NCBI RefSeq assembly: GCF_014164775.1
Contig: NZ_JACJGB010000012.1
Coordinates: 1-64,000 of the forward strand
Length of the DNA: 64,000 nt
Reading direction: 5' to 3'
Source of the DNA: Tessaracoccus sp. MC1679
Lineage (GTDB): Bacteria > Actinomycetota > Actinomycetes > Propionibacteriales > Propionibacteriaceae
Part shown: positions 10,135 to 57,059 of the stretch, in pieces
Numbering within the stretch: the first letter of the stretch is position 1
How the letters are laid out: the number at the start of each line of letters is the position of its first letter
Position numbers and translations under genes: made by a program
The notes under the pieces: model-generated
What the model saw: only the letters and a program-made list of their open reading frames with translations
Told to the model about the DNA's origin: nothing
Database searches by the model: none

Positions 10135-10961
10135 CGACGGCGCCTCCTCGACTTCACCTGCTGCGTCTGCGCACGGTGTGCAGGCGGTGAAGAACCGGTG
10201 GTCTTGAACAAGTCCACCCATGCCTCGACGGGCAGGTCCTTCGGGAGTCCTGCAGCGGTCATGCCGTGGCGTGTCAGCCACGCCTGTGCGGTCTGTGGTG
10301 ACCCGAGTGAGGCGGTGCGCGCGAGGATTTGGGCCAGCCCGCGGCCGGGGCCGGTGTAGACGCGGTGGACCAGGGCATGGAACTGGCGTCGCCGTGTCGG
10401 GGACAGCAGCGGATGTTCGCGACGGTGGATGGTGAGGATTCCGCCGTCGACTCCCGGACGCGGGGTGAACGCGCGAGCGGGAACACGACTGTGCAGCGTG
10501 AACTCGAACCAAGGCGCCCATTGCGCCGTCATCATCGTGGCACCGCCGACACCCGCTCTGCGCCGCGCGACTTCCCATTGCACGAGCACGATTGCATCGG
10601 TCCATGCCGGGGAGTGCACGATGCGGCGCAGTATGGCCGTGGTCTGGTGAAACGGCAGGTTGCCGACGAGCACATGCGCAGATGTTGGAAGCCGGTAGGT
10701 CAGGAAGTCGTCGGCGACGACCTCCACGTGCGACGGGAGCCGTTGGGCCAAGCGTCGGGCGAGCCGGGTGTCGATCTCGACGGCTGTGACTGGTCGCCCG
10801 AGCTGGGCCAGCGGGGTGGTGAGTGCTCCGTCACCGGGGCCGATCTCGATGATCGGGCCATCGGTGGCGGTCACGAGCCGTGTGATCGTGGCGATGGTGG
10901 ATGGGTCAGTCAGGAAGTTCTGGCCGTGCTCATGACGGCCACCTTGATAGGTAGGCACTGT
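10131..10961 (-). CDS. erm: Erm-family 23S rRNA adenine-N6 methyltransferase
   Basis: About 276 residues. The family dimethylates A2058 (E. coli numbering) of 23S rRNA, giving macrolide-lincosamide-streptogramin B resistance. Motifs: GRHEHGQNFL at the start, SAM motif EIGPGDGALTTPL, and catalytic NLPFH in VLVGNLPFHQTTAIL; the Arg-rich C-terminal tail is typical of actinobacterial Erm proteins. It resembles Erm(X) in layout but is clearly divergent, so the class is left open. GTG 10961 is chosen over GTG 10991 because GGAGC precedes it and because VPTYQGGRHEHGQ aligns with Erm(X) starts. It is preceded by a leader peptide and attenuator and followed by a coupled AraC-type gene. Confidence 0.9.
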   Translation of the reverse strand, partial: TVPTYQGGRHEHGQNFLTDPSTIATITRLVTATDGPIIEIGPGDGALTTPLAQLGRPVTAVEIDTRLARRLAQRLPSHVEVVADDFLTYRLPTSAHVLVGNLPFHQTTAILRRIVHSPAWTDAIVLVQWEVARRRAGVGGATMMTAQWAPWFEFTLHSRVPARAFTPRPGVDGGILTIHRREHPLLSPTRRRQFHALVHRVYTGPGRGLAQILARTASLGSPQTAQAWLTRHGMTAAGLPKDLPVEAWVDLFKTTGSSPPAHRAQTQQVKSRRRRR

Positions 10962-10970
10962 TTGCTCCGT

Positions 10971-11038
10971 GGTTGTTGCGGAGCCGGGCACGCTGAAAGA
11001 GCCGCCCGGCCGTGATCACCGGGGCGGGAGCAACAACC
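10971..11038 (-). promoter_or_regulatory. erm translational attenuator hairpin
   Basis: Between leader peptide and erm, GGTTGTTGC (10971-10979) pairs perfectly with GCAACAACC (11030-11038); an inner stem (CCGCCC 11002-11007 with GGGCGG 11022-11027) lies inside. The outer stem sits immediately upstream of the erm ribosome binding site, the position of the sequestering stem in macrolide-inducible erm leaders. The alternate conformation was not worked out. Confidence 0.65.
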
Positions 11039-18273: not shown

Positions 18274-19569
18274 TCAAGAGGCTTCGTGGGTGTCGAGGCC
18301 GGTGAGCAGGTTGTCGTAGATCTCGGCGCGGCGGATCTGGCCCTTGGCGCAGGCGTCGTCGCGTTGGGCGAGCAGGGTGGGGCGGAATTCGATGGTGGTC
18401 TGGAAGAACGTGCAGGACTCGCAGATCGTCTCGTAGATGCAGTCCATGATCTGGGGTCTGATGCAGTAGCCGTTGCCGAGCATGCGGGAGTGTTCGCGGT
18501 TCAGGCGGGCCATGTTCGGCCCGAGGTCGTCGGCGGGGAGCTCGGCGGGGCGGGCGTAGAGGGCGTCGACCTTCTCCGCTACGGTGAAGTACTCCTCGGC
18601 GACGGTCCGGTTGGCGATCTTGGCGTAGACCAGGGTCATGTCCATCGATTTGTGGCCGAGCATGGCGGCGATCGCTTCGAGCGACATGCCGCGGTTGATG
18701 GCCTGGGTGGCGAGGGTGTGGCGTAGCTGGTGGGGGTGGATGTGGCCGAGTCCGGCGGCGGCGCCGGCCTTGTTGATGAAGCGGGTGACCATGTGCCGGT
18801 CGATGCTCTTGCCGTTCTCTCGGGGCAGCAGTAGTCGGTGGCCGTCGGGGACGTGGGCCGCGCGGTAGTTGGTGACGAGTTCGACCAGCCTCGGATGTAG
18901 GGGCAGGTAGCGGTCCTCGTGGAGCTTCCCGACCGGGACGTGGAGCCAGTGCGTGTCTCCGATCAGGACGACGGCGTCGGCGGCCAGCGCGGTGAACTCG
19001 CCGACCCGTAGGCCGGTGCGCAGGAGGAACTCGACGGTCAGGCCGACGAGTTGTCGCTTGTCGGCCTGGGCGGCAGTGAGGAGCCGGGCCGCGGTCTGGT
19101 CGTCGAGCGCTTTGGGGAGTGCGTGGTGCTGCTTCGGGACGTCGCCGGGGAACATCGGCACCCGGGTCGGGGCGTCGTCCCAACCCCATTCATCGATGCG
19201 TAGGAAGAACATCCGCAGCGTTCCCAGCCGGTGAGCCAGGGTGGCGTTGGTGGCGCGGGGGGTGCCGGAGCGTCCAGGTCGGGCGGCCAGCCAGAGCTTG
19301 AATCCCTCGACATGCGCCCGGCCGATGTCGCGGACGCGGCTGATGTCGTGGTGGTGGAGCAGCAGGTAGGTCGCGAACGAACGCAGGCACTGGTCGGTGT
19401 TGGTCACGCTGCCGGGACGCAGCACGACCGCTACCTGATCCAGGTAGGTGCGCATCGTCGCGGCGACCAGCGGCAGGTCAACCACAATCTGCTCCCAGGT
19501 CGCCATCGGCGCCCCGCCGCCTCGCCCGGGCTGGTCCGTGGAGAACCGGGCCGGCAGCGTCGTGCTCAT
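18274..19569 (-). CDS. Tyrosine recombinase/integrase with Cys-rich tail
   Basis: 431 residues. Catalytic residues by pattern: R188 (LLRTGLRVGEF), K215, H280 and R283 (HPHQLRHTLATQA), H306 (MLGHKSMDMT), Y315 (LVYAKI). A SAM-like core-binding domain precedes them. After the catalytic domain an extra tail of about 110 residues contains a Cys-rich stretch (CIYETICESCTFFQ), as in TnpB of Tn554-like elements. ATG 19569 overlaps the stop of the preceding recombinase (ATGA), so the two are made together, as TnpA and TnpB are. It is the last gene of the recombinase cluster. Confidence 0.85.
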   Translation of the reverse strand: MSTTLPARFSTDQPGRGGGAPMATWEQIVVDLPLVAATMRTYLDQVAVVLRPGSVTNTDQCLRSFATYLLLHHHDISRVRDIGRAHVEGFKLWLAARPGRSGTPRATNATLAHRLGTLRMFFLRIDEWGWDDAPTRVPMFPGDVPKQHHALPKALDDQTAARLLTAAQADKRQLVGLTVEFLLRTGLRVGEFTALAADAVVLIGDTHWLHVPVGKLHEDRYLPLHPRLVELVTNYRAAHVPDGHRLLLPRENGKSIDRHMVTRFINKAGAAAGLGHIHPHQLRHTLATQAINRGMSLEAIAAMLGHKSMDMTLVYAKIANRTVAEEYFTVAEKVDALYARPAELPADDLGPNMARLNREHSRMLGNGYCIRPQIMDCIYETICESCTFFQTTIEFRPTLLAQRDDACAKGQIRRAEIYDNLLTGLDTHEAS

Positions 19570-20672
19570 CGCAGCCTCCTGAACCCCGGGATGCTCACCT
19601 GCGGCTCCGCGACGCTGCGCTGTGGTGGTGAGCCGACGGCGTAGACCTGGGCATCGATCACCTCAGCGGCGCGCCGATACTGCGATGCCAGCCAATCATC
19701 GGCCAGATGCAGATAGATCCTGGTGGACTCGATCGAGGCATGCCCGGCCTGGGCCTGGACCGCCTCCAACGCCATCCCGGCCTCCCGCAGCCGGGTCAAA
19801 CAGGTATGCCGCAGCTCGTGACACGATCCGTGCGCCAAACCGGCCCGCTCCCGCGCCGAGGCCAGCACCTGATCCAGACCCGCCGCCGACAACGGCCGCC
19901 CGCGATGAGGACGCTTCAGCACCAAGAACACGTGATCGGTCTCGGCCTCCGGAGGTCGTTCCTTGTCCAGGTAGACGCCCAGGTGGTCGAAGAACCGGGG
20001 CGAGACCGGGACCAGACGTTGGTGGCCGCCCTTGCCGTCGGCGATGAACAACTGCCGCTCGCCGATGCGGACATCCCCCAACCGCAGCCCCAGGACCTCG
20101 CAGCGCCGCAGCCCGCCCAACAACATCGCTGCCACCATCGCCCGGTCACGGTGGCTGCGCAACGCGCCAGTCAACGCATCGACCTCGACAGGTGCGAGGA
20201 TCCGCGGCAACATCCGAGGAGCACGAACCAGCGGAACACCCTGCGAGGGTCGGGCCTTCTCACGACGGGTCGGCAACCCGCGAGGGACCGGGTTGGCGCT
20301 CACGTCACCACGCGCAGCCAGGAAGCCATACAAGCCGCCGATCGTCGAGAGCCGCCGACGGATCGTCCGTAACGACACCCCCACGCAATCTGCCGACGCG
20401 ATCACCGGCAGAAGGTGTGGCTCGGGCAGGGACGGCAGACCCGCGCGCTGGGCCGAAATGAAACCCAACACGTCGACCGGACGCACCGCAGCCACCGGCT
20501 TACCCACCACGGCGAAGAAGACCTTCAGATCGAACCACGTCGCCAACACCGTGTTCGGACGCGAACGCGCCGACACGAACTCCAAATAGGCATCCAGCAA
20601 AGGATCACCCAACGACCCCAGCGTCGACACCGGCGACGCAGGCGAACTCAGACACGGCAAGACAGCACTCAT
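19566..20672 (-). CDS. Tyrosine recombinase/integrase (TnpA-like partner)
   Basis: About 368 residues from ATG 20672, which has a purine-rich GAGGGGGAGC upstream; the frame is open further to 20735. Catalytic residues: R189 (LLGGLRRCEVLGL), K214 (DGKGGHQR), H285 and R288 (CHELRHTCLTRL), H311 (AGHASIEST), Y320 (IYLHLA). It is coupled to the 431-residue recombinase. Paired recombinases of this kind drive transposition of Tn554-like and related elements; no cargo is obvious here. Confidence 0.85.
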   Translation of the reverse strand: MSAVLPCLSSPASPVSTLGSLGDPLLDAYLEFVSARSRPNTVLATWFDLKVFFAVVGKPVAAVRPVDVLGFISAQRAGLPSLPEPHLLPVIASADCVGVSLRTIRRRLSTIGGLYGFLAARGDVSANPVPRGLPTRREKARPSQGVPLVRAPRMLPRILAPVEVDALTGALRSHRDRAMVAAMLLGGLRRCEVLGLRLGDVRIGERQLFIADGKGGHQRLVPVSPRFFDHLGVYLDKERPPEAETDHVFLVLKRPHRGRPLSAAGLDQVLASARERAGLAHGSCHELRHTCLTRLREAGMALEAVQAQAGHASIESTRIYLHLADDWLASQYRRAAEVIDAQVYAVGSPPQRSVAEPQVSIPGFRRLR

Positions 20673-20828
20673 CGGCTCCCCCTCGAGCAGAACGACGAGA
20701 CCAACGATGCCGCGTCGGTGACCGGAATGGATCACCTACATATCAAGCATGAGAGTGAAGCGGGGGAGTGTCCAGGGAGGCCTCCGGCCGGACCCGGGGA
20801 CGATTCGAGGCCAAGCCCGCCGACCTCT

Positions 20829-21869
20829 TCAGAGAGGGAGTTGGGTGGCGGCGTTCTCTTCCCAGGCGTCTTCGATGCGGGTGTAGATGCCGATGGAGGC
20901 CAGGTCCTTGTGCCGGGTCTGTCTGGCGATCTGCAGGGAGGTGGCGCCGCGTTTCGCGGCGTAGGTGACGAACCCTGCCCGAAGGGAGTGGGCCGAGAAT
21001 CCGGTGGCGTCGAGACCGGCCCTGGTGACGGCCTGGGTGATCAGGCGGGAGAGGCCGTCGGGGGTGAGGCCACGGGCGCTGACCCGGTTGCCTTTGGAGA
21101 CGGACCGGAACACCAGGCCTTCGGTGATGCCGGCGACGGTGAGCCAGTTGCGTAGCGCGGTGACGGGGCAGTAGTCCTGGCGGGCACCCCAGGGGAGGAC
21201 CACGAGCTCAAGGTCGCCGGTCTGGTTGGTTTTGGAGCGGGTGAGCTCGATCACCAGGCCCCGTTCGTGGGGTTTGATCTGATCAACCTCGAGGGCGGCG
21301 AGTTCGGAGGCGCGCAGCGCGGACACGAACCCGACCAGCAGGAGTACCCGGTCCCGGATTCCGCTGAGCGAGGGCTCATCGTCGCGGGTCTTCCATTTCG
21401 TCATCGCCGGGCAAGCATCAACGACGTCGAGGAGGAGTGGGGGCATGAGGGGGCGGGCCTGGTCCGGGGGAGCCCCGAGCTGGCGGCGGATCCCTTCCCA
21501 GACGGCGATCACGCGCGCGGTCTGGGTGGGGTCGGGATGGTTACGGACCTTGTGGGCGAACCGGATCGTCGACAGACGGCGGCTGATCGTGCCGACCTTC
21601 GCCCCTGCGGTGGCCAGCGCCGAGATGTAGCGGGAGATCGCGATGTCGGTGGCGGGCAGCGCGATGTGGTGGTTGTCGCGGCACCAGGTGACGAACTCGG
21701 TCCAGTCGGAGCGGTACCCGCGCAGCGTCGAGGAGGCCCGGGAGGCCGAGGCGAACGCGGCCTCGGCCGCATCCAACGACAGGTCCTCCGGCAGCAACGT
21801 CCCCGCCTGATGATCAACGGCGACCAGACCACCAGCTGTGTCCAGGGCCCCTGGGTGCCCCTCAGACAT
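20829..21869 (-). CDS. Tyrosine recombinase next to a lox-like site
   Basis: About 346 residues from ATG 21869 (a TTG at 21890 would add seven). Catalytic set: R186 (FVSALRASELAAL), K213, H294 and R297 (SAHSLRAGFVTYA), H320 (QTRHKDLAS), Y329 (IGIYTR). The single compact domain plus N-terminal SAM-like domain resembles Cre/phage-integrase-type enzymes. Its start overlaps the preceding 110-codon gene, and 17 bp upstream of that gene lies a 14-8-14 inverted repeat of recombination-site form. A role in plasmid dimer resolution or cassette integration is inferred. Confidence 0.85.
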   Translation of the reverse strand: MSEGHPGALDTAGGLVAVDHQAGTLLPEDLSLDAAEAAFASASRASSTLRGYRSDWTEFVTWCRDNHHIALPATDIAISRYISALATAGAKVGTISRRLSTIRFAHKVRNHPDPTQTARVIAVWEGIRRQLGAPPDQARPLMPPLLLDVVDACPAMTKWKTRDDEPSLSGIRDRVLLLVGFVSALRASELAALEVDQIKPHERGLVIELTRSKTNQTGDLELVVLPWGARQDYCPVTALRNWLTVAGITEGLVFRSVSKGNRVSARGLTPDGLSRLITQAVTRAGLDATGFSAHSLRAGFVTYAAKRGATSLQIARQTRHKDLASIGIYTRIEDAWEENAATQLPL

Positions 21870-22194
21870 GGCACTCGTCGGGGAGCTCAAGCTGCTCGGC
21901 GAGCCAGGTGCCGGCGGCGGCCTCGGCCGCCGGTTTGGCGGCTGTGAGGGTGGGCTGGACGCCGCGGGCGATGCGGGTCACCTGGTCGGTGCTGCCGGTG
22001 CGGTAGATGGTGAGCGTCCAGGTCCAGCGACCGGCGGTGCCACGCTGGGCCATCAGCTGAAGATCGTGACGCTCCGAGATCGGCAGGTTCACACCCCACG
22101 CGGACTTCACGCCGGAGCGGTCGTGGCTCCACTGGTACGGGGGCAGCGGCACGTCGTCGCGGGTGACGAGTTGCTGTCGGCGTCGGGTGGCCAT
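21862..22194 (-). CDS. Small basic protein co-encoded with the recombinase
   Basis: 110 residues beginning MATRRRQQLVTRDDVPLPPY; no family recognised. A beta-rich centre (WTWTLTIYRTGSTDQVTRIA) and an Ala-rich helix (AAKPAAEAAAGTWLAEQLEL) suggest a small DNA-binding or accessory protein. Its stop overlaps the recombinase start by eight bases, so the two are translationally coupled, and the lox-like repeat lies directly upstream. It could be an accessory recombination-directionality factor, but nothing in the sequence proves it. Confidence 0.6.
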   Translation of the reverse strand: MATRRRQQLVTRDDVPLPPYQWSHDRSGVKSAWGVNLPISERHDLQLMAQRGTAGRWTWTLTIYRTGSTDQVTRIARGVQPTLTAAKPAAEAAAGTWLAEQLELPDECHV

Positions 22195-22210
22195 GCTGGG
22201 AGCCTACCGT

Positions 22211-22246
22211 TATTACATCGGATTCTCTGGATAATCCGATGCAATA
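22211..22246. repeat. Lox-like 14-8-14 inverted repeat, candidate recombination core
   Basis: TATTACATCGGATT, an 8-bp asymmetric spacer CTCTGGAT, then AATCCGATGCAATA. The two arms are inverted repeats with one mismatch in 14. Arms of 11-14 bp around a 6-8-bp spacer are the architecture of tyrosine recombinase sites (loxP is 13-8-13). It lies in the promoter region of the recombinase operon, so it could alternatively be a repressor operator. I did not notice a second copy in the window. Confidence 0.6.
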
Positions 22247-22490
22247 CGTAGCCTGGGTTCAGGTCAGTGCAGGCGGGTGTCGACGGTGCGCTTGTCGCGA
22301 ATGAACGCGGTGGCATTGAGCGCCAAGCTCATCGTTGGCGGTCCACAGGGTCAGTCCGAGGCGACGATGGCGGAGTAGAACGATTCGAACATGATCGGGC
22401 CGTCATTGCCGATGCGGACGAGGGTGCCCGTCCTCGCTGGAATACCGCGAATCTTGCGGCTGCCCGCGACTCTAGAGGTGAGTCGAAGCT

Positions 22491-23881: not shown

Positions 23882-24442
23882 CTAGAGGGCCCTGAGGGTG
23901 ACCGTCTCCTCACCGTCGTTGGAGATTAGGTCACCATCGACACGAAACAGCCGAAGGCGCCGGGACGCGGCGTCGTCGTGGGTGTGGCGGGTGTGGGCGG
24001 CGCGGCCGGGCCAGGGTTGGTGCTTCTCCTCGCAGGCGCGGCGCTGATCCCGGGTCCGGTCGAGGTAGCCGGGCAGGGCGTAGCGGTGCCACTCTTCCAA
24101 CGGCAACGGGCCGGTGGACTCGCCGGCCTGGAATCTTAGGAACGCCAGGGTGCCGAGTTCCCGGACTAGGGGCGGGTGCTCGGGCCAGCAGCCAGGGGTG
24201 TGGTCGGCGGAGTACCAGCCGTGCTGCGAGTTGAGCCAGACGACGAAGGCCTCCAGCCACACCCAGCAGTCCCATCGCAGATCGGGGTCGGCGATGGTGG
24301 TGAGGTCCCAGATCCTGGGCAGGATTTCCCCTGTGGCCAGGATCTCCTCGGCGGCCTCTCCCCCGCGGGCGAACGCGGCGAGGTCTAGGTAGGCGGCGAG
24401 CATCCGCTGCGTGAGGTCGGGAAAGGGCAGTAGCTGACTCAT
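23882..24442 (-). CDS. Conserved-looking protein at the end of the transfer operon
   Basis: 186 residues, no signal peptide or membrane segment. A Trp-rich centre (LRWDCWVWLEAFVVWLNSQHGW, then GCWPEHPPLVRELGTLAF) resembles the short DUF proteins often found beside the coupling protein in actinobacterial conjugative elements. It starts 15 bp after the coupling-protein stop in the same direction and is the last gene of the cluster. A role in transfer is inferred from position only. Confidence 0.55.
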   Translation of the reverse strand: MSQLLPFPDLTQRMLAAYLDLAAFARGGEAAEEILATGEILPRIWDLTTIADPDLRWDCWVWLEAFVVWLNSQHGWYSADHTPGCWPEHPPLVRELGTLAFLRFQAGESTGPLPLEEWHRYALPGYLDRTRDQRRACEEKHQPWPGRAAHTRHTHDDAASRRLRLFRVDGDLISNDGEETVTLRAL

Positions 24443-24457
24443 AGCGATTCAGGTCCT

Positions 24458-25891
24458 TCAGTCGGTGAGGCCGAGTTGGCGGGCGTAGGAGTGCGCCATG
24501 GCGGTTCTCTCCCCGGCGCTCATCGAGTGGGTGTCGGGGCTGTTGACGATAAGCAGGCGTGCTGCGCGTTGCTGGTCGACGAGTCGTTTGCCGGGTTTGC
24601 CGTCGATGGCGCGGTGGAGGGTGGCGAGGATCGGCTTCCCGTTCTCCGCCACCACCAGCGCGGTGCGGGTGGGCAGTTCGCGGAGTTGTTCGGGGCGGAT
24701 CACGGGGGTGTCTTCGCCGTGGGTGGAGATCGAGCCATGCTGCCCGTGCTGCTGGTTCCGTCGAATGACGCGCCTGGTACCGAGGAGGTCGCTGATCTCC
24801 CGATTGAAGGCGGAGTCTTTGGAGCCGCCGAAGATGATCAGGGAGTTGGTCAGATCCTTGATCGAACGGGCCTGCTGTTCCCCGAAGATGCGTGTCAGCT
24901 GGGCCCAGGTTTGGGAGGCCCAGATGAACGAGATCCCCAACGCCCGCTCGTTCGCCATCCGCGTTGGCAGGGTCGGCAGGGGTGCGGTGGAGGGGAGTTC
25001 GTCGAGGCAGGCCAGCATCGGGGGGCACAGCCGGCCGAACCCGCTCTCGTTGGCGAGCTGGAGGGCGGTGTCGAGGACGTGTTCGGCGACGGCGGTCATG
25101 AGCGGGGAGGCGGAGACGTAGGGGTCTTCACGGCCGAGCAGGTAGATGGTGCCGTTTTGGCGGATGAGGTCGGCGATGTCGACGGCGGGCCGCCCGTTGC
25201 TCGGGACGCAGCGTTCGCGTCGGTCCTTCGTGGCGAAGAGGGCGAGGGCTTGGTCGACGGTGGATTTGGTGTTGCCGGCGGTGCGTTCATCGGTGTTGGT
25301 GACCGCGCCGGCGAGGAGTCCGGACCAGTTCGGTTCTGCCATCGGGTGCGAGCGCAGGATCTCCGAGGGGAGGGTGGCGGTGCGGGGGTTCGCGGACCAT
25401 TCGAGGACGTCGTTCAGCGTGTAGCCGGCCAAGGCTGCGGCGTGCAGGTAGCACTGGATGACTTTCGCGGCTTCGGCGGCGTAGAAGCGGGCGGCGGAGT
25501 CGGCCCCGTCTCCCCCACTTCCGAGGGTGCCGGCGCAGAATGCTTTGGCTCGCTTCTCCGCGACGGTGGCGTCGACGCAGCCGTCGATCGGGTCCCAGAT
25601 CAACTCCGGCAACCCTGGCGCGGTTCCGAACGGGTCGAGGACCGCCACGGGGCCGCGGGCTTGGCGTGCGGCGAGGGTGAGGAGGAGGTCGTCGGGTTTG
25701 GTGAGGGTCACCAGGGCAGCGCCTGGGGCCTGGAGGAGGGCGGGGGTGAGGATGTCGAGGGTCTTGCCCGATCCCTGGGCCCCGATGACGCCGGCGGTGC
25801 GGTCCCACGGCTGCCACAACGCGACCCCGACCGGGACCTTGCTGGTCCCGATCCGCCACCCCACCTCAGTGGGCTCAAACCTGCCCCTCAT
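24458..25891 (-). CDS. Type IV coupling protein, TraG/VirD4-like ATPase
   Basis: 477 residues. Walker A GAQGSGKT at about 37-44 and Walker B-like MLACLDEL near the middle, followed by ALGISFIWASQTWAQLTRIFG, the TraG-D C-terminal domain. Coupling proteins carry the relaxase-DNA complex to the secretion channel. The N-terminal membrane segments normally present are absent here and appear to be supplied by the small membrane protein encoded just upstream, with which it overlaps (ATGA). It may be a split TraG/TcpA-type coupling protein. Confidence 0.85.
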   Translation of the reverse strand: MRGRFEPTEVGWRIGTSKVPVGVALWQPWDRTAGVIGAQGSGKTLDILTPALLQAPGAALVTLTKPDDLLLTLAARQARGPVAVLDPFGTAPGLPELIWDPIDGCVDATVAEKRAKAFCAGTLGSGGDGADSAARFYAAEAAKVIQCYLHAAALAGYTLNDVLEWSANPRTATLPSEILRSHPMAEPNWSGLLAGAVTNTDERTAGNTKSTVDQALALFATKDRRERCVPSNGRPAVDIADLIRQNGTIYLLGREDPYVSASPLMTAVAEHVLDTALQLANESGFGRLCPPMLACLDELPSTAPLPTLPTRMANERALGISFIWASQTWAQLTRIFGEQQARSIKDLTNSLIIFGGSKDSAFNREISDLLGTRRVIRRNQQHGQHGSISTHGEDTPVIRPEQLRELPTRTALVVAENGKPILATLHRAIDGKPGKRLVDQQRAARLLIVNSPDTHSMSAGERTAMAHSYARQLGLTD

Positions 25892-26331
25892 CGCCTGTGA
25901 CCCTTCCGGTACAGGTCGGGGCGGATCACGGCCCGGTTAGCGCGGAGACGGCCCAGTCCGAGGAGCTGTTCGGCCTGTCCGGCCGTGGCCATGCCCTTGA
26001 AGCGACGGCCTGACGTGACACGCAGCGCAAGGACGATGGCGGCGGCCAGGCCGGCAATGAACACCGCGCCGGCAATCACCCACGCGACCCAGACTGTGGC
26101 GACGCCGTGGGTGGTGGTGAGGCCGGCGTGGAGGTTGCCGGTGAGGATGCCCCAGCTGCTGGTGACCAGCGCGGCTGACGGTGGCCAGTGCCAGCCGGCG
26201 CCGGCGGCGGCGAGGGTGAGGCTGCGGCCGGCCTGGACCGCCACCACCCCGAGGAGGGCGACGAGGGTGAGGGCGCCGACGGCGGGTTCCCAGGTCCAGG
26301 CGTAGCCGTCGTCATGCTGCGAATCTGTCAT
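25888..26331 (-). CDS. Membrane partner of the coupling protein
   Basis: About 147 residues from ATG 26331 (MTDSQHDDGYAWTW). Two hydrophobic segments are clear (AVGALTLVALLGVVAVQAG and VAWVIAGAVFIAGLAAAIVL), followed by a basic cytoplasmic tail with AGQAEQLLGLGRLRANRAV. This matches the N-terminal membrane region of actinobacterial TraD/TcpA coupling proteins, here encoded separately and translationally coupled to the ATPase gene. The role is inferred from position and topology. Confidence 0.7.
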   Translation of the reverse strand: MTDSQHDDGYAWTWEPAVGALTLVALLGVVAVQAGRSLTLAAAGAGWHWPPSAALVTSSWGILTGNLHAGLTTTHGVATVWVAWVIAGAVFIAGLAAAIVLALRVTSGRRFKGMATAGQAEQLLGLGRLRANRAVIRPDLYRKGHRR

Positions 26332-26512
26332 ACCCCTGAAGAACCCGGACGAGTCGGGTCCACAGCGCGAACGCATTCAGCACATCGGCCACGTGCCGGC
26401 TGGTTCCTGGGCCGGGGAGCACGGAAGCCTCCGGCGATGGGGGGTCGCTGGAGGCTTCCGGCTGGATGGTGTCGATGGACGTCGACACCGCTTTGGGTGT
26501 GCTTCCGGACAC
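26312..26512 (-). CDS. Small transfer-operon protein
   Basis: A 66-residue ORF (MSGSTPKAVSTSIDTIQPEA, ending HVADVLNAFALWTRLVRVLQ and then GYDRFAA) that fills the gap between the lipoprotein gene and the coupling-protein membrane partner. Its 3' end overlaps that gene by 20 bp. Composition is protein-like and position is consistent, but no family is recognised and the start is not backed by a strong ribosome binding site. Confidence 0.4.
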   Translation of the reverse strand: MSGSTPKAVSTSIDTIQPEASSDPPSPEASVLPGPGTSRHVADVLNAFALWTRLVRVLQGYDRFAA

Positions 26513-26600
26513 TACCCGGCGGAGGCAAATCGTGGATACCTACCATCGGCTGCCGTTCGCGTTCAGGCGAGCCGCCGCAGCCGCGGGCTTGGCGGGCTTG

Positions 26601-27137
26601 TCAGGGGGTGATGGCGATGGCGATCCAGCCATAGGTGCTGTCGGGGTCGAGGATCAGGGTGACGTCGACGGCTGTGCCGGTGTCGAGGCGGTGGCGGGTG
26701 GTGATCTGCATGGGATCGGCGTCGATCACATGGGTGGGGCCGTGCTGGGTGCCGGCGGCGGGGGTGAAGCGGGGGTCGTCGAAGGCGGCGATCAGCGCCT
26801 CCGCCGCCACACCCTCGAGGCGCTCACGTCTCAGCTGCTGGTCGGCGGTCAACCAGCCGACGACGAACTCGCTGGCCGCGGTGACCGCCGCCACGATCTG
26901 GGCATCCTCGGGCGGCTCATGGGGATGCGCCTCCACCGTGGATGGGGTGGTGTGGAGTTCGTCGGCGCCGACCCAGCCCTCGGTCGGTCCGCTCTCCCCC
27001 ACCACCCCGGGCGAGGGAGCCCGACCTGCGGTGGTCTCGACCGGGGTGGGTGTCTGGTTCGGGGTGGAGCTGCAGCCGGAGAGCAGTAGCGCGGCGAGCA
27101 CTGCGGTGAGGAGGTGGGTGGTTGGGTGTGGGGTCAT
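26601..27137 (-). CDS. Transfer-operon lipoprotein
   Basis: 178 residues from ATG 27137, which overlaps the stop of the peptidase gene (ATGA). The N-terminus is a lipoprotein signal with lipobox LLSGC at about residues 19-23, followed by a Pro/Thr-rich linker and a C-terminal domain (HRLDTGTAVDVTLILDPDST) that could be a NTF2-like or VirB8-like fold. The open frame extends upstream through the peptidase gene, but that part is shadow. Likely a surface-anchored secretion component. Confidence 0.75.
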   Translation of the reverse strand: MTPHPTTHLLTAVLAALLLSGCSSTPNQTPTPVETTAGRAPSPGVVGESGPTEGWVGADELHTTPSTVEAHPHEPPEDAQIVAAVTAASEFVVGWLTADQQLRRERLEGVAAEALIAAFDDPRFTPAAGTQHGPTHVIDADPMQITTRHRLDTGTAVDVTLILDPDSTYGWIAIAITP

Positions 27138-28597
27138 GGGGTGAGTCCTCGGGTGCGCAGCCAGCGGTCGGGGTCGGTGGGGGTGCCGCCGATGCGGACT
27201 TCGAGGTGGAGGTGGGCTCCGGTGACGTTCCCGGTGGCGCCCACGGAGCCGATGACGGTGCCGGCGGTCACGCGTTGCCCGACGGTGACGGTGATGGCGG
27301 ATTGGTGGGCGTAGTAGAACACGGTGCCATCGGAGGTGGTGAGGGTGGTGAGGTTGCCGTAGGCGCCGGCAGACTCGGTGCGGGTGATGGTGCCGGCGGT
27401 GATGGCTTTGATGGGGGTGCCGGTGGGGGCGGCGAAGTCGAGTCCGGTGTGGGCCTTCTTCCACCGGGGTCCTGTGTCGCCGAAGCGGGAGGTGAGGCGG
27501 TAGCGGTCGACGGGCAGCACCACCGAGCCCGACGCAGCCTTGGTGGTGGCGGTTCCTTGGGTGCCGTGGACGGAGATGTGGACGTGGTCCAGATGCGCCG
27601 CTGACGGGTCGGGGCCGGTGTAGCAGGACGCGGTTTGGCCGCAGCGTCGCCAGCCCTCGTCGGCCTTGGCGGTGGACCAGAGGTGTTCGCGCCAGATCAC
27701 ATAGGTGACTCCCAGCGCGGCGGCGTTGGCGCGGGCCCATTCCGCGATCTCCGTGCCGAGGGCGATGCCGGCTGGGGAGAAGTAGTTGGGGATCATCACG
27801 TCGACGGCGCGACCGGTCCCGTGATCTTTCGGGTCGCCGGGGCGGACGCCGAGCAGCGATCGGATCTGCGGCCATCTGGAATGGATACAGCGCATCACGC
27901 GCAGCGCGTCGGGGGTCTGGCCCTGCTCGGACGGCATTCCCGTGGGTGCACAGTCCAGGTCGGCGTCGAGGGGTCCGCAGTGGGCGAGACCTGCGGGTTG
28001 GCCGGCGAACAGGGCGACCAGGGTGCGAGCGAGGCCTTCGTGGCGTGCGTAGGCGTCGGGGTAGGCAGACACCTGCACCTTCTGCGCCGCCTCGGCGACC
28101 GTGAGCTGCTGCCAGCCGTCGATGTCGACCAGGCCGGGGATGTGCCATCCGGCGCGGGTGGTGTGGCCGAGGTAGAAGGTGCGGGCCTGGTAGGCGTCGT
28201 CGGCCAGAATCGTGAGGTTCTCTTGTTGGGTGGTGCCGTCGGCGTACCAGCCGACCAGGGAGCGTTGCTGGAACAGTCCGACGTCGCCGTCCGAGTTCGG
28301 GGTCGCGGCGGCGGGGTGGGCGCCGAGGACCGATTCCTGCATGGCGGTGGCGATCCCGACCACCGCACCGGCCGGGCCTGCGCCGGTGTCGAGGGCGGCG
28401 GCGTAGATGAGGGCGGCGCGGTTCATCTGCCCCGCATCCAACTCGATGCCGACCGGGGTGTCGCCGGCCCAGCCGGCGCACGTGGCGCTGACGGTCTGCG
28501 TCGCTGTCTGGGGTCCGGCCAGGGCGCCGGCGAACACGAGGATCGGCGCCAAAGGCACCGTCAGCGCCGCTGCAATGACGACAAGTGCCTTCCACAT
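27134..28597 (-). CDS. Conjugation cell-wall hydrolase, M23 peptidase domain
   Basis: 487 residues with an N-terminal membrane/signal segment (KALVVIAAALTVPLAPILVF). The N-terminal domain (AAALDTGAGPAGAVVGIATA and QESVLG) resembles lysozyme-like domains with a glutamate in QES; a middle domain contains HGTGRAVDVMIP and HLDHVHISV, a peptidase-like His/Asp set. The C-terminal domain is M23: HTGLDFAAP, YYAHQSAI, GAHLHLEVRI provide the zinc ligands. It would open peptidoglycan for the mating channel. It is the conjugative VirB1-like enzyme and overlaps its neighbours. Confidence 0.85.
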   Translation of the reverse strand: MWKALVVIAAALTVPLAPILVFAGALAGPQTATQTVSATCAGWAGDTPVGIELDAGQMNRAALIYAAALDTGAGPAGAVVGIATAMQESVLGAHPAAATPNSDGDVGLFQQRSLVGWYADGTTQQENLTILADDAYQARTFYLGHTTRAGWHIPGLVDIDGWQQLTVAEAAQKVQVSAYPDAYARHEGLARTLVALFAGQPAGLAHCGPLDADLDCAPTGMPSEQGQTPDALRVMRCIHSRWPQIRSLLGVRPGDPKDHGTGRAVDVMIPNYFSPAGIALGTEIAEWARANAAALGVTYVIWREHLWSTAKADEGWRRCGQTASCYTGPDPSAAHLDHVHISVHGTQGTATTKAASGSVVLPVDRYRLTSRFGDTGPRWKKAHTGLDFAAPTGTPIKAITAGTITRTESAGAYGNLTTLTTSDGTVFYYAHQSAITVTVGQRVTAGTVIGSVGATGNVTGAHLHLEVRIGGTPTDPDRWLRTRGLTP

Positions 28598-30084
28598 CAG
28601 GTCTGCAGTTTCTGGTTGGTGTCGGTCAGGGGCAGTTCGAGGTCGGGGTGGAGGGTGAGCGCGACCTTGTGGAGGCGTGGCCCCACGGCGATGAGGGCTC
28701 GGCCTTTGCCGCCCATGGCCCAGCCGGTGACGATGTCGCGGGCGACCGGCCCCAGCTCGAGGAGCTGCTCCAGGTCGTCGGCGACCTCGGCGTCTTGGCC
28801 GAAGAGGACCTTGATGTCACCCAGGTGGAGGAGGTCCTTGGCGATCTGCTGCGCCTGCGACCCGGCATGCCCCGCCCCAAGGTAGTCCGAGGGTTTGTGG
28901 GCGTTGGCGATCTCAATATCCCCATGCGACCGCGACAGCCGAAGATCCGCGTCGAAGGAGGACACGGCACCGGTACCGAGGCGCAGTTGTCGCCAGACTT
29001 CGTCGCGGACATTGATCCTGCGCCGACCACTGACTTGGCGCATGGCGGTGCCCCACGAGTTGAGACACATCAACGCCATCCCGACGGCATCGTCGCCCAG
29101 CGGCATCAACCTCGACAGCGACAGGGATTGGATCGGCGCAGTCCAATCGATGGTGACGGTGGTGGGGGCGTCGAAGATCCCTGCGAACACACCGGAGATG
29201 AGTTGCGCGACCGCGTCCCGCAACAGGCGGGTGTCGTCGAGGAACGTGTGCCGGTCCGGGTATCGCAGCTCCGCGATCAGGTGGTCGCTGGGTGAGTGCA
29301 ACTGCTGCCACACCTCAGGGATCACAATCGGCCGCAGCTCGCGGGTATCGGTGGTGGCGTGAGTGAGCTCAACGAGGACGGCTTTGAGGACCTGTTCCTC
29401 CGTTGGTCCCACCGCCACTTTCCTGTCGCCGATGCTCTGGGAGCCGATCAACGACCGGAGGAGGACGAGCCAGCGTCCGAAGATGATCGCCTGCCTGCGG
29501 TGCTGCTCCTCCCTGTCGAGCTGGCCCCAGTTTGTGGCGAGAGGTCCGGGGTCGAGGGGGTTGAGGCGGGTGGGCATGCCGGGGCCGATGGCGAAGGGTT
29601 CGACGCCGAAGTGACGGCACATCAGCTCGTACTCGTCCTTCGGATCCCCCAGGATCAGGGCCTGGTAGCCGAAGGCGAACATTCGGTTGAGGAACGCTTT
29701 GACCCAGGCGGATTTCCCGCGGCCGGGTTTCCCGAACACGAAGATGTTGGGGTTGGTGACGGGGATGGAGTCGTTGAGGACCCAGCCGTGGGGGTCGACG
29801 TAGAAGGTGGCGCCGTTGCTCATGTCGGTGCCCATCGGGGCCCCGGTCGGCGGCAGAGGGCTGGCGGTGAGGAAGGGCCAGAACACGCCGGCCTGGTCGG
29901 AGGTCATCTGGTACCGCTTCACCGCGGGCCGCGCCGCCACCCACCCCGCCCCCTTCACTGGTCGGCCGCGCCACGGCGGGGCGGAGGTGAACTCGCGGGC
30001 CGGCCGCTCATCCACGGTGGCTGGTCTTGTGGGGAGGTCGTGGCCGAAGTCGGCGAGGAGGCGGTTGATGCTGCGGGCCATCAT
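28597..30084 (-). CDS. VirB4/TraE-like conjugation ATPase
   Basis: 495 residues from the double ATG at 30084, overlapping the upstream stop (ATGA). Walker A GKPGRGKS at about 118-125 follows NIFVFG; later SHGDIEIANAHKPSDYLGAG matches the VirB4 C-terminal ATPase motifs. VirB4 powers the assembly of the secretion channel. The open frame extends to 30558, but the upstream part is antisense-like. Compared with about 800-residue VirB4 proteins it lacks most of the N-terminal domain, which is normal for this actinobacterial group. Confidence 0.87.
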   Translation of the reverse strand: MMARSINRLLADFGHDLPTRPATVDERPAREFTSAPPWRGRPVKGAGWVAARPAVKRYQMTSDQAGVFWPFLTASPLPPTGAPMGTDMSNGATFYVDPHGWVLNDSIPVTNPNIFVFGKPGRGKSAWVKAFLNRMFAFGYQALILGDPKDEYELMCRHFGVEPFAIGPGMPTRLNPLDPGPLATNWGQLDREEQHRRQAIIFGRWLVLLRSLIGSQSIGDRKVAVGPTEEQVLKAVLVELTHATTDTRELRPIVIPEVWQQLHSPSDHLIAELRYPDRHTFLDDTRLLRDAVAQLISGVFAGIFDAPTTVTIDWTAPIQSLSLSRLMPLGDDAVGMALMCLNSWGTAMRQVSGRRRINVRDEVWRQLRLGTGAVSSFDADLRLSRSHGDIEIANAHKPSDYLGAGHAGSQAQQIAKDLLHLGDIKVLFGQDAEVADDLEQLLELGPVARDIVTGWAMGGKGRALIAVGPRLHKVALTLHPDLELPLTDTNQKLQT

Positions 30085-31586
30085 TGGTGCCTGGTGGTGA
30101 GGCTGACCCCGAGTGGGAGGGTGGCGGTGACGAAGGCCAGGTCCTGGGACATGTCGAGGCGCTGGGGGGCCATGCCGCCGCGGCGGATCGCGGCATCCAG
30201 CCGTCGGCCGAACTCCGCCACCGGCGCGGTCGCGGGGACGGTGGTGGAGCAGAGGGCGTAGGGGTGGCTGAGGGTGGCGCCCATCGCGAGCTGCACCTCG
30301 ACCCGGTCCAGTTTCGCCTGGCGGCGGTGGTCTTTGGCTCCGGTGCGGACTCCGAGCCGGTCCTTCAACCCTTGGCCGAGGCTTTGGCCGAACTCCTGCT
30401 GGGCCGCCTTCCGGTCCGCGGCGGACTGCTTCTCGATCGGGAATACGATCGCCACGCTGCGCCGCTCCACCGCCTCGCTGGGGGCAAGGACGTGTCCCCA
30501 GCCGCCCATCGTCGCGCCACGCTCGGGCAGCTTCACCGTCGCAGTGACCGTCGCCCACGCATCATGCGCATAATGCCGAACCGCCGCATACGCCTGTGAC
30601 GGGCCGGCCAGCGCCCACGGCACAGAAGCACACGCCTGCAGATCGTTGGCTGCGTCGTGGGCGGCGGCGATGAGGCCGGCGCGGTCGCCGGGGGCGAACC
30701 CGAGCCTGACGACCTGCGCGAGTTCGGGGGAGGTGAGCCATTCGATGTTGCGTGCGCCGATGGGGCCGGTGACTACTGCTCCGATCTCGGCGGCCAGGGA
30801 GAGGAGGGTGTTCATCCGGCCATCGGTGGCGCCGCCCATGTGTCTGGCTTCTTTGCTGAGGCGGTTGTCGGGGATGACGAGGGTGATGAAGGCTTCGGTG
30901 TGGACACCGGCCTGGGACCAGCGCAGGTGCTCGATCTGTGTGGCCACGGACGTGACGGGGGCATCGGGGGTGATGTTGGCGCGTAGCCACAGTTCCCGCT
31001 CGGTGCAGTCATCGGGGGTGGTGCGCACCATCAGGTGGATCTCGGAGATCAGCTCCCCTCGGGCGGCGGTGTCCAGGAGTTCGGTCAGGCCGTCGGTGTA
31101 CCGGTTGCACAGGGCGTCGGTGGCCATCGCGATCCCTTCGTGCTCGATCCGGGCGGTGATCGCCCACGTCCTGGCTGCGCAGTGTTTGATCACCGCGATC
31201 CGCCTTTGGGTGAGTCCGATGGGTGGGCCGTCGAGGACCTCGACGCCGGTCAGGGCTCCGGGCATGTCGAGCTCGTCCAGGTCGCGGAGGGTGCCGGTGG
31301 CGGCCTTTGACCGGAAGGTGAGCCAGCCGTTCAGGCCGGCGATGGCGAACGCGGCGGCGGCGGCGAGCCAGCCGACGGCGGGGCGTCCGCCGAGGGGGAC
31401 GACGGTGAGGAACAGCAGCAGCAGCCATACCGGCACCCACATGATCCCGGCCAGCCAGCGCTGTGAGCTGATCGCCATCCACGCCGGGAACGTCGCCACC
31501 GACAGGAACAGCAGCTGGGGGACGGTCAGGCCCCAGATCACGCCGGCCTTCGGGGTGGTGAACGCGTCAAAGGTTCTGGCCGCCAT
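30081..31586 (-). CDS. SCO6880/PrgI-like conjugation membrane protein
   Basis: 501 residues with N-terminal hydrophobic segments (IWGLTVPQLLFLSVATFPAW; MWVPVWLLLLFLTVVPLGG) and a large cytoplasmic domain (CNRYTDGLTELLDTAARGEL) as in SCO6880 family proteins of actinobacterial conjugative elements, which combine VirB3-like and VirB4 N-terminal parts. It lies between the VirB6-like and VirB4-like genes, overlapping both, and probably forms one complex with the ATPase. Confidence 0.8.
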   Translation of the reverse strand: MAARTFDAFTTPKAGVIWGLTVPQLLFLSVATFPAWMAISSQRWLAGIMWVPVWLLLLFLTVVPLGGRPAVGWLAAAAAFAIAGLNGWLTFRSKAATGTLRDLDELDMPGALTGVEVLDGPPIGLTQRRIAVIKHCAARTWAITARIEHEGIAMATDALCNRYTDGLTELLDTAARGELISEIHLMVRTTPDDCTERELWLRANITPDAPVTSVATQIEHLRWSQAGVHTEAFITLVIPDNRLSKEARHMGGATDGRMNTLLSLAAEIGAVVTGPIGARNIEWLTSPELAQVVRLGFAPGDRAGLIAAAHDAANDLQACASVPWALAGPSQAYAAVRHYAHDAWATVTATVKLPERGATMGGWGHVLAPSEAVERRSVAIVFPIEKQSAADRKAAQQEFGQSLGQGLKDRLGVRTGAKDHRRQAKLDRVEVQLAMGATLSHPYALCSTTVPATAPVAEFGRRLDAAIRRGGMAPQRLDMSQDLAFVTATLPLGVSLTTRHQ

Positions 31587-33036
31587 TGTGGTCCTCCGCT
31601 TCTCTCACAGCCACAGGAGGCTGCGCCGCACGCTGCGGCTGGGTTGATGTGACGGCGCCGAGCTGCGCCGGATGAGGAGCGCGGCGGATGTCGCCTGCCG
31701 GGTCGTACGGGTAGGACGGGTCGCCGGCCCCCATCCCGGAGGTGGTGTCGTTGACCAGCCCGGTGGCGCGGGCGCCGACCTGCTGGAACCCGTCGACGAG
31801 CTTCTTCGCGCCGAGGATCACCCCCGCCGCCACCACCCCCACCGGCCCAGCCACCGCACCCACACCAGCAGCACCAGCGGCCGCTCCCCCACCAGCTGCA
31901 GCACCCGCGCCGGCTGCAGCTCCCCCAGCAACGCCAGCGGAGCCGCCCACGGCTCCCCCGGCTCCGCCGCCGCCGGCCCCCGCCGCGGCAGGGCTGAAGC
32001 TGGAGCTCTGCGCCGCAGCGGCACGGCTCGCGGTGGCCGACTCCCCCGCACCAGCAACTCCCCCACCACCAGAGCCTCCGCTGCTGCGGGTCACAGCGGT
32101 GTGGGCGTGGCCGGCGGCTGAGGAGGCGCCGGTGGTGCCGGCCAGGCCGGCGCGGAACGAGGCCCCGCTGGTGGTGCCCGGATCGACGAACGCCAACAGC
32201 CGGAACAGAGCCACCGGGGAGAGGGCCGCGACGGCGATCATCACCACGGATGGCAACGCCAGAGCGACGGCCTCCTGGGCGGAGTCCTCCATCCCCAGCG
32301 AGACGCCGGTGGCCAGATGTACCCCCAACCCGAGCATCAGCGTCATCAACAAGGGCGCGATAGCGGCGGCATGGAACCAGCGAAACGCCTTCCAGAACCA
32401 TGATTCGAACGGCTTGTACATCAGTCCGGCCGCGGCGATCGGTGCGGTGGCGGCGATCACGATCAGCGACACCGCCCGGCCCAGCATCACCACCAGATGC
32501 GCCAACGCGGCCAGCCACAACACCAACCCCAGCAACATGAGCACGGTGGCGGTGGTGCCGGTCATCACCCCTTCGGTGAAGTCCAGACCGGTAGGCTCCC
32601 AGTCGGCAAGATCCGCTGTGCCCAGCAGCTGGATCCGCAGCGCCGTGTTGAGTCCCTCCACAGCCGTGACCAGGGCGGCGCCGTAGGTGTACCAGAGGGC
32701 GCAGACCAGCAGAAACTTCACCGCACCGAAGATGGCGCCGCCAAGGGAGAGGGCGTCTCGGCGGAGGACGGTGCCGACCAGCTGCACGATCAGCAGCATC
32801 AACGCCAACGAGAGACCGAGCCAGAGGGTGAGGCCGTAGACCGACCACAGCGCCGACGAGGACCCGTCAGGGTTGAGGTTGGGGGTGAGGAACCAGTCCC
32901 CCAGCTGCAGGATCGCCCGCATCACCCACAACCCGGCCCCCCACACCGCCATGCAGATCGCCACCCACGCATCCACCACAATCTGACCCCCCGCCGCGGC
33001 CAGATCACCGAACAACTCCCCGATCTGCTCCCACAT
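31567..33036 (-). CDS. VirB6/TrbL-like polytopic channel protein
   Basis: About 489 residues from ATG 33036 (MWEQIGELFGDLAAAGGQ). Six or so membrane segments in the N-terminal 280 residues (LALMLLIVQLVGTVL; VLMLLGLVLWLAALAHLVVM; LIVIAATAPIAAAGLMY), then a Gly/Ala/Ser-rich low-complexity region (about residues 330-420) and a hydrophilic tail. This is the TrbL/VirB6 layout of inner-membrane channel proteins. It starts two bases after the stop of the preceding gene and overlaps the SCO6880-like gene by 20 bp. Confidence 0.82.
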   Translation of the reverse strand: MWEQIGELFGDLAAAGGQIVVDAWVAICMAVWGAGLWVMRAILQLGDWFLTPNLNPDGSSSALWSVYGLTLWLGLSLALMLLIVQLVGTVLRRDALSLGGAIFGAVKFLLVCALWYTYGAALVTAVEGLNTALRIQLLGTADLADWEPTGLDFTEGVMTGTTATVLMLLGLVLWLAALAHLVVMLGRAVSLIVIAATAPIAAAGLMYKPFESWFWKAFRWFHAAAIAPLLMTLMLGLGVHLATGVSLGMEDSAQEAVALALPSVVMIAVAALSPVALFRLLAFVDPGTTSGASFRAGLAGTTGASSAAGHAHTAVTRSSGGSGGGGVAGAGESATASRAAAAQSSSFSPAAAGAGGGGAGGAVGGSAGVAGGAAAGAGAAAGGGAAAGAAGVGAVAGPVGVVAAGVILGAKKLVDGFQQVGARATGLVNDTTSGMGAGDPSYPYDPAGDIRRAPHPAQLGAVTSTQPQRAAQPPVAVREAEDHNGGQNL

Positions 33037-33037
33037 C

Positions 33038-33808
33038 TCAGGCGTCCCGCCATTGCAGCCAGCCCGCCGCGACAGCGAGTTCGGTGCCCGGCCACGTCGA
33101 CGGCCCCGGCACCGGATGCGCACCCTCCGCGATCAGCCACCGGTCGCCCTGCCAGGTCATGCGTTCGCAATGCCCATAGGCCAGGCGGGCCTGGTCGCGG
33201 AACGTGTAGGTGATCTCCACCAACACACACACCACATGCCAGCCGTCGCCGTCCGAGCCCTTCACCAGGCCCGCCGAGGGGATCACCGTCAGTGACGCCC
33301 CCGGTGGCAGACCTGCCGGCATCTTCCCGGCGGTCAGGAACGACTGAATCAACCCCAACACCGGCCACGACCCCATCGAGCCAGTGGGGTCCTCGAACCA
33401 GGACTGCTGCACCCGCTGCGCATGACCCAGATCCATCGAGCCGAGGACGGAGACCAGGATCTCCCCCAACTGCCCCACCGCACCCTCCGGCGTCTTCGGG
33501 TAGCCAGTCGGGATCCCCTCCGCCCCGACCTGATCAACCAGGGGAATGTTGATCGTCGGCAGGGTTCCGAGGGCAGGGGTGCCGCCCGTCGCGTCCGCCG
33601 GCGCCACCGGCAGCATCGGTGCGGCCGCGATCTCATCGCGGATCGAGACGCCGCCGGCCGGCAGCGAATCGACGACCTGACCCGTTGTGCGGGTGGTGGG
33701 GTCGTCGGCGACGGCGAAGTAGACGGCGAACCCCAGGCCGGAGAGCAGCAGCAACGCCACCGAAGTGACGGCGGCCAGCAAGGTGAGGTGCGCGCGATCG
33801 GGCCTCAT
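33038..33808 (-). CDS. Membrane-anchored transfer protein in VirB8 position
   Basis: 256 residues from ATG 33808 with one N-terminal membrane segment (LLAAVTSVALLLLSGLGFAV) and an extracytoplasmic domain (WFEDPTGSMGSWPVLGLIQS; WHVVCVLVEITYTFRDQARL; WQGDRWLIAEGAHPVPGP). The topology matches VirB8/TcpC-type scaffold proteins in actinobacterial conjugation, an assignment that rests on topology and position. The longer frame upstream is shadow. Confidence 0.7.
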   Translation of the reverse strand: MRPDRAHLTLLAAVTSVALLLLSGLGFAVYFAVADDPTTRTTGQVVDSLPAGGVSIRDEIAAAPMLPVAPADATGGTPALGTLPTINIPLVDQVGAEGIPTGYPKTPEGAVGQLGEILVSVLGSMDLGHAQRVQQSWFEDPTGSMGSWPVLGLIQSFLTAGKMPAGLPPGASLTVIPSAGLVKGSDGDGWHVVCVLVEITYTFRDQARLAYGHCERMTWQGDRWLIAEGAHPVPGPSTWPGTELAVAAGWLQWRDA

Positions 33809-33810
33809 GG

Positions 33811-34143
33811 TTAGCGGGTAACGCAGCCGTCGCCGAGGAACCCCGACAAGATGCCCGGGATCACGAGGTAGAGCAGGGCGGCGCCGAGGACGACGAACAC
33901 CCCGATCAGGCCGCCCTTCGACACGTGCGGCATCGAGAACACCTTGCCCATGATCACCGCCGCCACCGCCGCCAGGATCCCCGCCGGGAACGCCACCCAC
34001 ACCAGAGCCCACGAGAACCAGCCCAGGAACTCGTCCACCAGGACCTGCGCCCCCGCCGGCGCGACCGGGCACACCATCCCCCGCCCCTCCGCAGGCACCA
34101 CCACACCCGCAGACACGGCCTCGGCTACGAACTGAACGATCAT
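33811..34143 (-). CDS. Small two-helix membrane protein (pilin/VirB2-like position)
   Basis: 110 residues from ATG 34143, overlapping the ParA-like gene stop (ATGA). Two long hydrophobic stretches (FLGWFSWALVWVAFPAGILA; GGLIGVFVVLGAALLYLVIP) and a short basic loop. Size, topology and location fit a conjugative pilin-like or VirB2/VirB3-like subunit of Gram-positive systems. No specific motif. Confidence 0.65.
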   Translation of the reverse strand: MIVQFVAEAVSAGVVVPAEGRGMVCPVAPAGAQVLVDEFLGWFSWALVWVAFPAGILAAVAAVIMGKVFSMPHVSKGGLIGVFVVLGAALLYLVIPGILSGFLGDGCVTR

Positions 34144-56585: not shown

Positions 56586-56647
56586 GGTCACACTCTCTAT
56601 CAACCCGGGCACACTGGTCCCATAGCGTGAACCTACCCGCAACGTAT

Positions 56648-56674
56648 CTGTATAACTAGTGACTTTTGGTCACT
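56648..56674 (-). promoter_or_regulatory. Promoter/operator of the tad operon
   Basis: AGTGAC-TTTTG-GTCACT (56658-56674) is a perfect 6-bp inverted repeat, and on the minus strand TAGTTATACAG directly follows, giving a -10-like TTATAC at 56653-56648. The palindrome would cover the region between -10 and -35. The double-HTH gene that ends here is the obvious candidate regulator. Confidence 0.5.
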
Positions 56675-57037: not shown

Positions 57038-57059
57038 GCCCACAGGATAGGGGCCTGCC

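Follow-up and report, generated by a model that had tools for sequence, protein, structure and literature searches.

What is the role of the near-perfect palindrome that precedes a tyrosine recombinase operon in Tessaracoccus sp. MC1679? The original prediction likened it to a Cre-type core site and proposed that it could belong to an undescribed plasmid resolution system. We analysed the surrounding 64,000-nucleotide stretch (the window), which lies on contig C3 of the MC1679 genome (G000), alongside other genomes of the family Propionibacteriaceae and plasmid records. In the reading that we favour, with a probability of roughly 0.78, the palindrome would be the core of the adjoining recombinase, site, small gene and recombinase would travel together as a 1.5-kb module, and solo sites elsewhere would have been left behind or docked on.

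A lox-like palindrome heads a recombinase operon

In the window the palindrome reads TATTACATCGGATT CTCTGGAT AATCCGATGCAATA, two 14-nt arms with one mismatch and 8 nt between them, in the place and with the sequence originally given. On the minus strand, in the orientation of the module described below, it is TATTGCATCGGATTA-TCCAGA-GAATCCGATGTAATA, which can be parsed as 15-6-15 or, equivalently, as 14-8-14. The site in a further genome, G008, and those of homologues suggest the 15-nt arms and 6-nt centre as an alternative layout, with the central 6 nt as the putative region of strand exchange. The single arm mismatch is peculiar to the window, as six of the eight other module copies have arms that match perfectly over 14 nt. 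Over the 1.5 kb that precede the recombinase gene, an inverted repeat matching at 13 of 14 positions with an 8-nt gap was reached with p = 0.002 (500 2-mer block shuffles).

Palindromes are numerous in GC-rich genomes, so a chance repeat or a transcription terminator with no part in recombination had to be considered. The window holds the 14-8-14 pattern just once when up to three mismatches are allowed, and none of 100 shuffles contains it; the palindrome is conserved in 15 places, and no T-run terminator was found within 20700–22350. We give this explanation practically no credence. A promoter-like site was likewise not found within 20700–22350.

Table 1. Features of the recombinase locus in the window
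Feature	Position	Strand	Remarks
36-bp lox-like core site (predicted)	22211..22246	-	Pattern scan and alignment of copies; left terminus of recurring module
Central 6 nt	22226..22231	.	TCCAGA on minus strand; putative role in strand exchange
110-aa gene, first of operon	21862..22194	-	Overlaps recombinase gene
Cre-type tyrosine recombinase	20829..21869	-	Likely ATG; frame open from TTG at 21890
Module right edge	20747..20760	-	Minus strand CTTCACTCTCATGC; copy comparison
Overlapping tyrosine recombinase genes (389 and 431 aa)	18274..20735	-	Directly downstream of module, outside it

The palindrome lies 16 nt ahead of the ATG of the 110-aa gene and 0.3 kb from the recombinase gene, and both genes share the module orientation of the site, in agreement with the earlier description of a repeat directly upstream of a small gene and a recombinase. 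The recombinase belongs to the phage integrase family of Pfam (PF00589). A single-sequence search placed XerD (1.3e-6) and Cre (1.9e-6) level, and a profile of 19 homologues compared with solved structures ranked Cre first, at 2e-31 and over almost the whole profile, with XerD at 3e-20. Residues R186, K213, H294, R297, H320 and Y329 are invariant in all 19 aligned homologues; we take them to be the catalytic set of tyrosine recombinases (Arg, Lys, His, Arg, His/Trp, Tyr), and they are presumed to act as such here. Ratios of dN/dS between 0.07 and 0.15 (10 pairs of five intact copies) suggest that the recombinase is under purifying selection. The corresponding pairwise values for the 110-aa gene are 0.17–0.56, and no family was found for its product. 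We found no relative of the recombinase in viral contigs and five distant relatives in phage records.

Beyond the locus, the window carries conjugation-type genes (TraG/VirD4-like, M23 peptidase, T2SSE ATPase) and ParA at 23882–34733 and 53630–60621, and a gene of the ribosomal RNA adenine dimethylase family at 10131–10991 that has, by eye, the look of an erm-type macrolide resistance gene.

The palindrome ends a recurring module

DNA alignment showed that the block from window position 22246 down to about 20747 recurs with 92.0–95.2% identity in eight further places. This 1.5-kb module, comprising the palindrome, the 110-aa gene, the Cre-type recombinase and a right edge near 20747, is thereby found at nine places in seven Propionibacteriaceae genomes: on contigs C3 and C13 of G000, twice in G012, and once each in G010, G139, G013, G014 and G036, the last copy being cut off by a contig end. 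(L001, L002, L003 and L004–L005 are the same copies as those of G010, G139, G036 and G012, respectively, and were counted once.) A protein scan of genome contigs returned five close relatives, at three loci in two species of Tessaracoccus and in two Propionibacteriaceae assemblies without further classification, and matches at E ≤ 1e-30 occur in 13 of 198 family genomes. Both G012 copies have interrupted frames, possibly through sequencing error, as the assembly is listed as 60% complete.

Conservation of the repeat beside homologous recombinases, on which the original prediction had staked itself, is seen at all nine close module copies. Together with the preference of the profile for Cre, this bears out the proposal of a Cre-type core site next to a Cre-type enzyme. 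The backbones of G000 and G036 are about 80% identical and their modules about 94%, a difference that points to lateral spread of the module. Site, small gene and recombinase form a portable unit that recurs in related actinobacteria.

A lone relative of the 110-aa gene (67% identical) lies at G018:C27:43043-43337 (L096 2997-3386, minus), with a solo site about 26.5 kb away; next to this gene, neither a site nor a match to the recombinase was found.

The site is a seam between unrelated DNA

Within G000, a search for the arms around a free 8-nt centre with up to three mismatches found four places (reversed control, none): two intact sites, one degenerate site next to a recombinase remnant, and a three-mismatch match on C16 which, standing apart from any module, is probably due to chance and was left out of later counts. 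Short recombinase remnants on C11 and C12 carry no site. Extending the search to 198 family genomes, with the 26-nt core and a tolerance of three mismatches, gave 14 places in nine genomes (reversed control, no match), of which nine are at modules, three at degenerate modules (G000 C10, G018 C8 and G129) and two are solo sites, on G018 C27 (G018a) and G036 C45 (G036b). A fifteenth, also solo, lies on G008 C11 and first appeared as a weak match.

Across these 15 sites, per-position agreement is 96% within the 36 bp, compared with 45% in the 20 nt to the left, and a strict touching test distinguishes 13 left contexts and four right contexts. No two of the nine modules have the same left flank, and the differences reach as far as the palindrome's outer edge. 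A common left flank is shared by G010, G018a and the degenerate G000 C10 copy; between G010 and G018a it extends over 9 kb at 98.2% identity (99.8% in the last 2 kb), and the two diverge from 5–7 nt past the site. G036b carries a diverged form of the same flank (82–85% identical, to about 80–95 nt from the site), which the strict touching test did not group with the other three. To the right of the site lies the module in G010 and other sequence in G018a and G036b. The match to the module extends 5–7 nt past the site in G018a, where a simple deletion beside the site is conceivable, and stops at the last base of the site in G036b. In G008 the arms are kept with one change and the neighbouring bases are kept, and the centre reads TCGATG instead of TCCAGA. 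The contig bearing this site carries conjugation genes 66–76% identical to blocks within window positions 23983–34733.

The solo sites, the seam position and the changed G008 centre fit strand exchange with a second site, and on these sequence comparisons the palindrome is very probably the core recombination site of the adjoining recombinase. No two of the 15 sites from the family genomes bracket a single segment, the arrangement expected after a completed integration, and no clean empty site was found in 39 genus genomes searched with 9-kb stretches around the G014 and G013 copies. Comparison of 100 kb of G013 with stretches of G008, G043 and G044 found no synteny beyond a flanking kinase-like gene.

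One chromosomal neighbourhood is present in both G036 C45 (L062) and G000 C13 (L016), homologous up to 0.7–0.9 kb from the site; each of the two species has a site there, but the orientations are opposite and the partners differ.

Plasmid homologues carry palindromes of similar build

A tblastn search of plasmids yielded 262 records with a relative of the recombinase, and loci were hand-picked from 60 of these: a first set of 18 plasmids and a hold-out of 12. With the Komagataeibacter plasmid dropped for its missing upstream sequence, the first set comprised 21 loci, namely 17 plasmids, the window, G150, G084 and G106; G075, whose contig ends 70 bp before the gene, was left out. Scans at fixed gaps gave mixed results: with an 8-nt gap the shuffle p value was 0.002 at the window locus, 0.004 and 0.014 at two more, and between 0.05 and 1 at most of the remainder. 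Inspection of gaps of 6–8 nt revealed a common inner signature, GATAA-N6/7-TTATC, in palindromes that are otherwise spelled differently. The signature occurs within 1.5 kb upstream in 13 of the 21 loci (shuffles: mean 0.38, maximum 2) and downstream of the recombinase gene in none of the 21.

Since the rule was derived from these loci, only the hold-out is an independent test. There the signature lies upstream in 8 of 12 loci (shuffles: mean 0.15, maximum 2) and downstream in none of the 12; two of the twelve offer only 0.7–0.8 kb of upstream sequence, and one is an unannotated record with an estimated gene start. Among the homologue sites found by the rule, 13 of 21 have a 7-nt centre. The search beside homologues for the window's site, as originally advised for plasmids, turned up palindromes of similar build rather than the same sequence, and by the rule none within 1.5 kb upstream in the remaining 8 of 21 and 4 of 12 loci, including that of G150 (59% identical). 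The window's own site (GATTA...GAATC) falls just below the strict rule, Pseudonocardia palindromes at an 8-nt gap (p = 0.05 and 0.27) fail it, and Acetobacter has one very symmetric repeat that lacks the signature. In 29 genomic relatives at a greater distance, GC-rich repeats obscured the palindrome scan; two of these relatives, L157 and L160, have a GATAA-type palindrome near the gene start and stand outside the counts. The plasmid search gave no match to the 110-aa gene, and a small gene adjoining a Pseudonocardia homologue shows no similarity to it.

The placement of these palindromes bears on whether the repeat is only an operator, at which the 110-aa protein or the recombinase would repress the operon with no recombination involved. 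Such a role would suit a site so close to the first ATG, the spacing at about ten homologues, where the palindrome precedes the recombinase gene by some 50–110 bp, and two Alicyclobacillus plasmids in which it stands ahead of an operon of AbrB, a second gene and the recombinase. However, solo sites devoid of the operon (G036b, G018a and G008) and flanks that switch at the site would be unexpected for a mere operator, and the inner arms around 6–7 nt resemble recombinase cores such as loxP and dif. We consider an operator-only function distinctly unlikely. It is partly compatible with a core site, as binding could serve both ends.

The original prediction also raised a role in plasmid resolution. 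Of the 30 plasmid regions viewed, 7 are in circular records and have the homologue near a ParA or replication-initiator gene, which fits multimer resolution and makes that role plausible for the Cre-type module. Four module copies, however, lie in contigs of 3.2–3.9 Mb (two in G012 and one each in G013 and G014), and the window's contig, a possible plasmid, measures 80,845 bp, has no overlapping ends and carries ParA and conjugation genes.

A cassette system adjoins the module's right edge

The right flanks of the copies diverge after ...CTTCACTCTCAT. TGCCGA follows this edge in seven of the eight modules with a readable right side, leading into six different neighbours (G014 and G139 share theirs); the eighth is the window, where the 389-aa recombinase gene follows without TGCCGA. 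The right flanks of G010, G139 and the G036 module (G036a) are short, and other sequence comes directly after the module in G010 and G139.

These edges raise the possibility that the block is an IS-like element moved by its own recombinase, with the palindrome merely its left end. Sharp borders on both sides in several contexts, an IS-like size and the two copies each in G000 and G012 are what such an element would show. Yet there is no matching arm at the right edge, the right flanks are non-random in that seven of eight start with TGCCGA, 36-bp solo sites occur without the block, and no target duplication was seen by eye in the flank listing of the copies. We regard an IS-like element as very unlikely.

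Two of the six right neighbours are also met elsewhere, beginning in the same way: a pair that looks YefM/RelE-like by eye (G013) and a small gene of no recognized kind (G014 and G139). Many such cassette units are bounded by AACATCCG-N4-TGCCGC, which occurs 51 times in 39 genus genomes compared with 5 in the reversed control, and 39 times compared with 34 outside the genus; as far as these counts go, the junction signal does not extend beyond the genus. In a set of 54 unique junctions, which includes some from other genera, several upstream ends are each seen with more than one downstream start, and the N4 goes mostly, but not always, with the upstream end. By eye, the cassettes include toxin–antitoxin pairs, an acetyltransferase-like gene and others.

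In G000 a 327-aa XerD-like recombinase, YR327, sits in broken frames 13 bp and 105 bp away from junctions; in G010, G016 and G021 it lies within 3 kb of one. At E ≤ 1e-40 it is present in 6 of 39 genus genomes, is absent from the junction-bearing G012, G013, G014, G020, G030 and G044, and occurs in G035 and G037, which lack the exact junction pattern; this counts against YR327 as the only agent.

Such cassettes occur at G000:C9:294000-306000 (L084), L040, L066, L129–L130 and L196, and a related junction (GCTCGCTCATGCCGC) lies in the window at about 15551 (minus).

The module might double as the mobile platform of an integron-like cassette system without IntI, or be a large member of it: the palindrome would let the platform hop between replicons or islands that hold a solo site, and the right end would serve as an attI-like cassette receptor. 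Six different sequences starting with TGCCGA at the same right edge in seven copies, two of them recurring elsewhere with the same start, speak for this. Against it, cassette-type junctions occur in G020, G021, G030 and G044, where no Cre-type module was found, a different recombinase, YR327, lies within 3 kb of junctions in four genomes, and the module's own start is not a cassette start. The genus-only signal and the patchy YR327 pattern leave the cassette part less settled and slightly lower our estimate of this arrangement, which we consider unlikely. We take the cassettes to be a system of their own, adjoining the module on the right.

Proposed mechanism and known systems

For the palindrome as recombinase core, we propose that recombinase monomers would bind the arms of two copies of the site, and that the conserved tyrosine would cut on either side of the central 6 bp so that strands are exchanged. 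Direct repeats, as in multimers or cointegrates, would be resolved, and replicons or islands with one site each would be fused; solo sites would be left on other mobile DNA or be docking points in it. The site's place in the operon leader may also let the recombinase, once bound, reduce its own expression. All of these steps, from binding and cleavage to resolution or fusion and to autoregulation, are proposed from sequence. Exchange at the palindrome leaves the sharp right edge unexplained.

The closest parallels are Cre/loxP of phage P1 and the Cre-type relatives VCre, SCre, Vika, Dre, Nigri/nox and Panto/pox; Cre is the best structure match of the recombinase profile. As in Cre/lox systems, with their sites of roughly 34 bp, the gene has a nearby intergenic palindrome in which two arms enclose a short asymmetric centre; an intergenic palindrome near the gene is the criterion given in PMC4957104 for predicting nox and pox. 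According to PMC2409434, P1 stays monomeric through Cre acting at loxP. A mismatched centre would be expected to block cross-recombination, as PMC4957104 suggests for rox and pox. The module differs from Cre/loxP in having arms of 14–15 nt with another sequence, an operon that opens with a 110-aa orphan gene, copies in chromosome-sized contigs with solo sites elsewhere, and, in 13 of 21 homologue sites, a 7-nt centre.

With XerCD/dif the likeness lies in the inner arm edges of the homologues' sites, which resemble dif cores. Here, however, the recombinase gene adjoins the module site, in place of a host XerC/XerD pair, and the recombinase profile is closer to Cre than to XerD. A further parallel is with the pdif modules of Acinetobacter, as dif modules are shuffled between short sites (PMC6449649, PMC13141974).

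The cassettes at the right edge recur elsewhere with fixed ends, as in integrons. The integron core is GTTRRRY, from which the junction AACATCCG-N4-TGCCGC differs, and the integron-integrase model TIGR02249 (cut-off 265 bits) scores YR327 at 49.5 and the Cre-type protein at 22.1; we rejected an integron on both counts.

RIT elements consist of three adjacent tyrosine recombinase genes that form one element. Among 14 loci examined by tblastn, the two neighbouring recombinases occur only in the window, apart from a fragment of the 389-aa gene that follows the degenerate module on G000 C10, and a RIT element was rejected.

Literature on Cre-type and lox-like systems and on Tessaracoccus integrons yielded no description of this module, and an earlier one is possible. 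The system is very probably of the Cre/lox kind with an unusual spread, combining a new Cre-type enzyme with a predicted site.

Implications

Orthogonal pairs of recombinase and site are wanted as genome tools, and the locus offers a new Cre-type enzyme with a predicted site that evolution has tested; the inner signature predicts sites for many relatives on plasmids of several phyla. The cassette system may be an integron analogue without IntI and, if so, would be the larger discovery. The occurrence of solo sites and of mosaic flanks points to a part for such sites in splicing islands and conjugative elements together.
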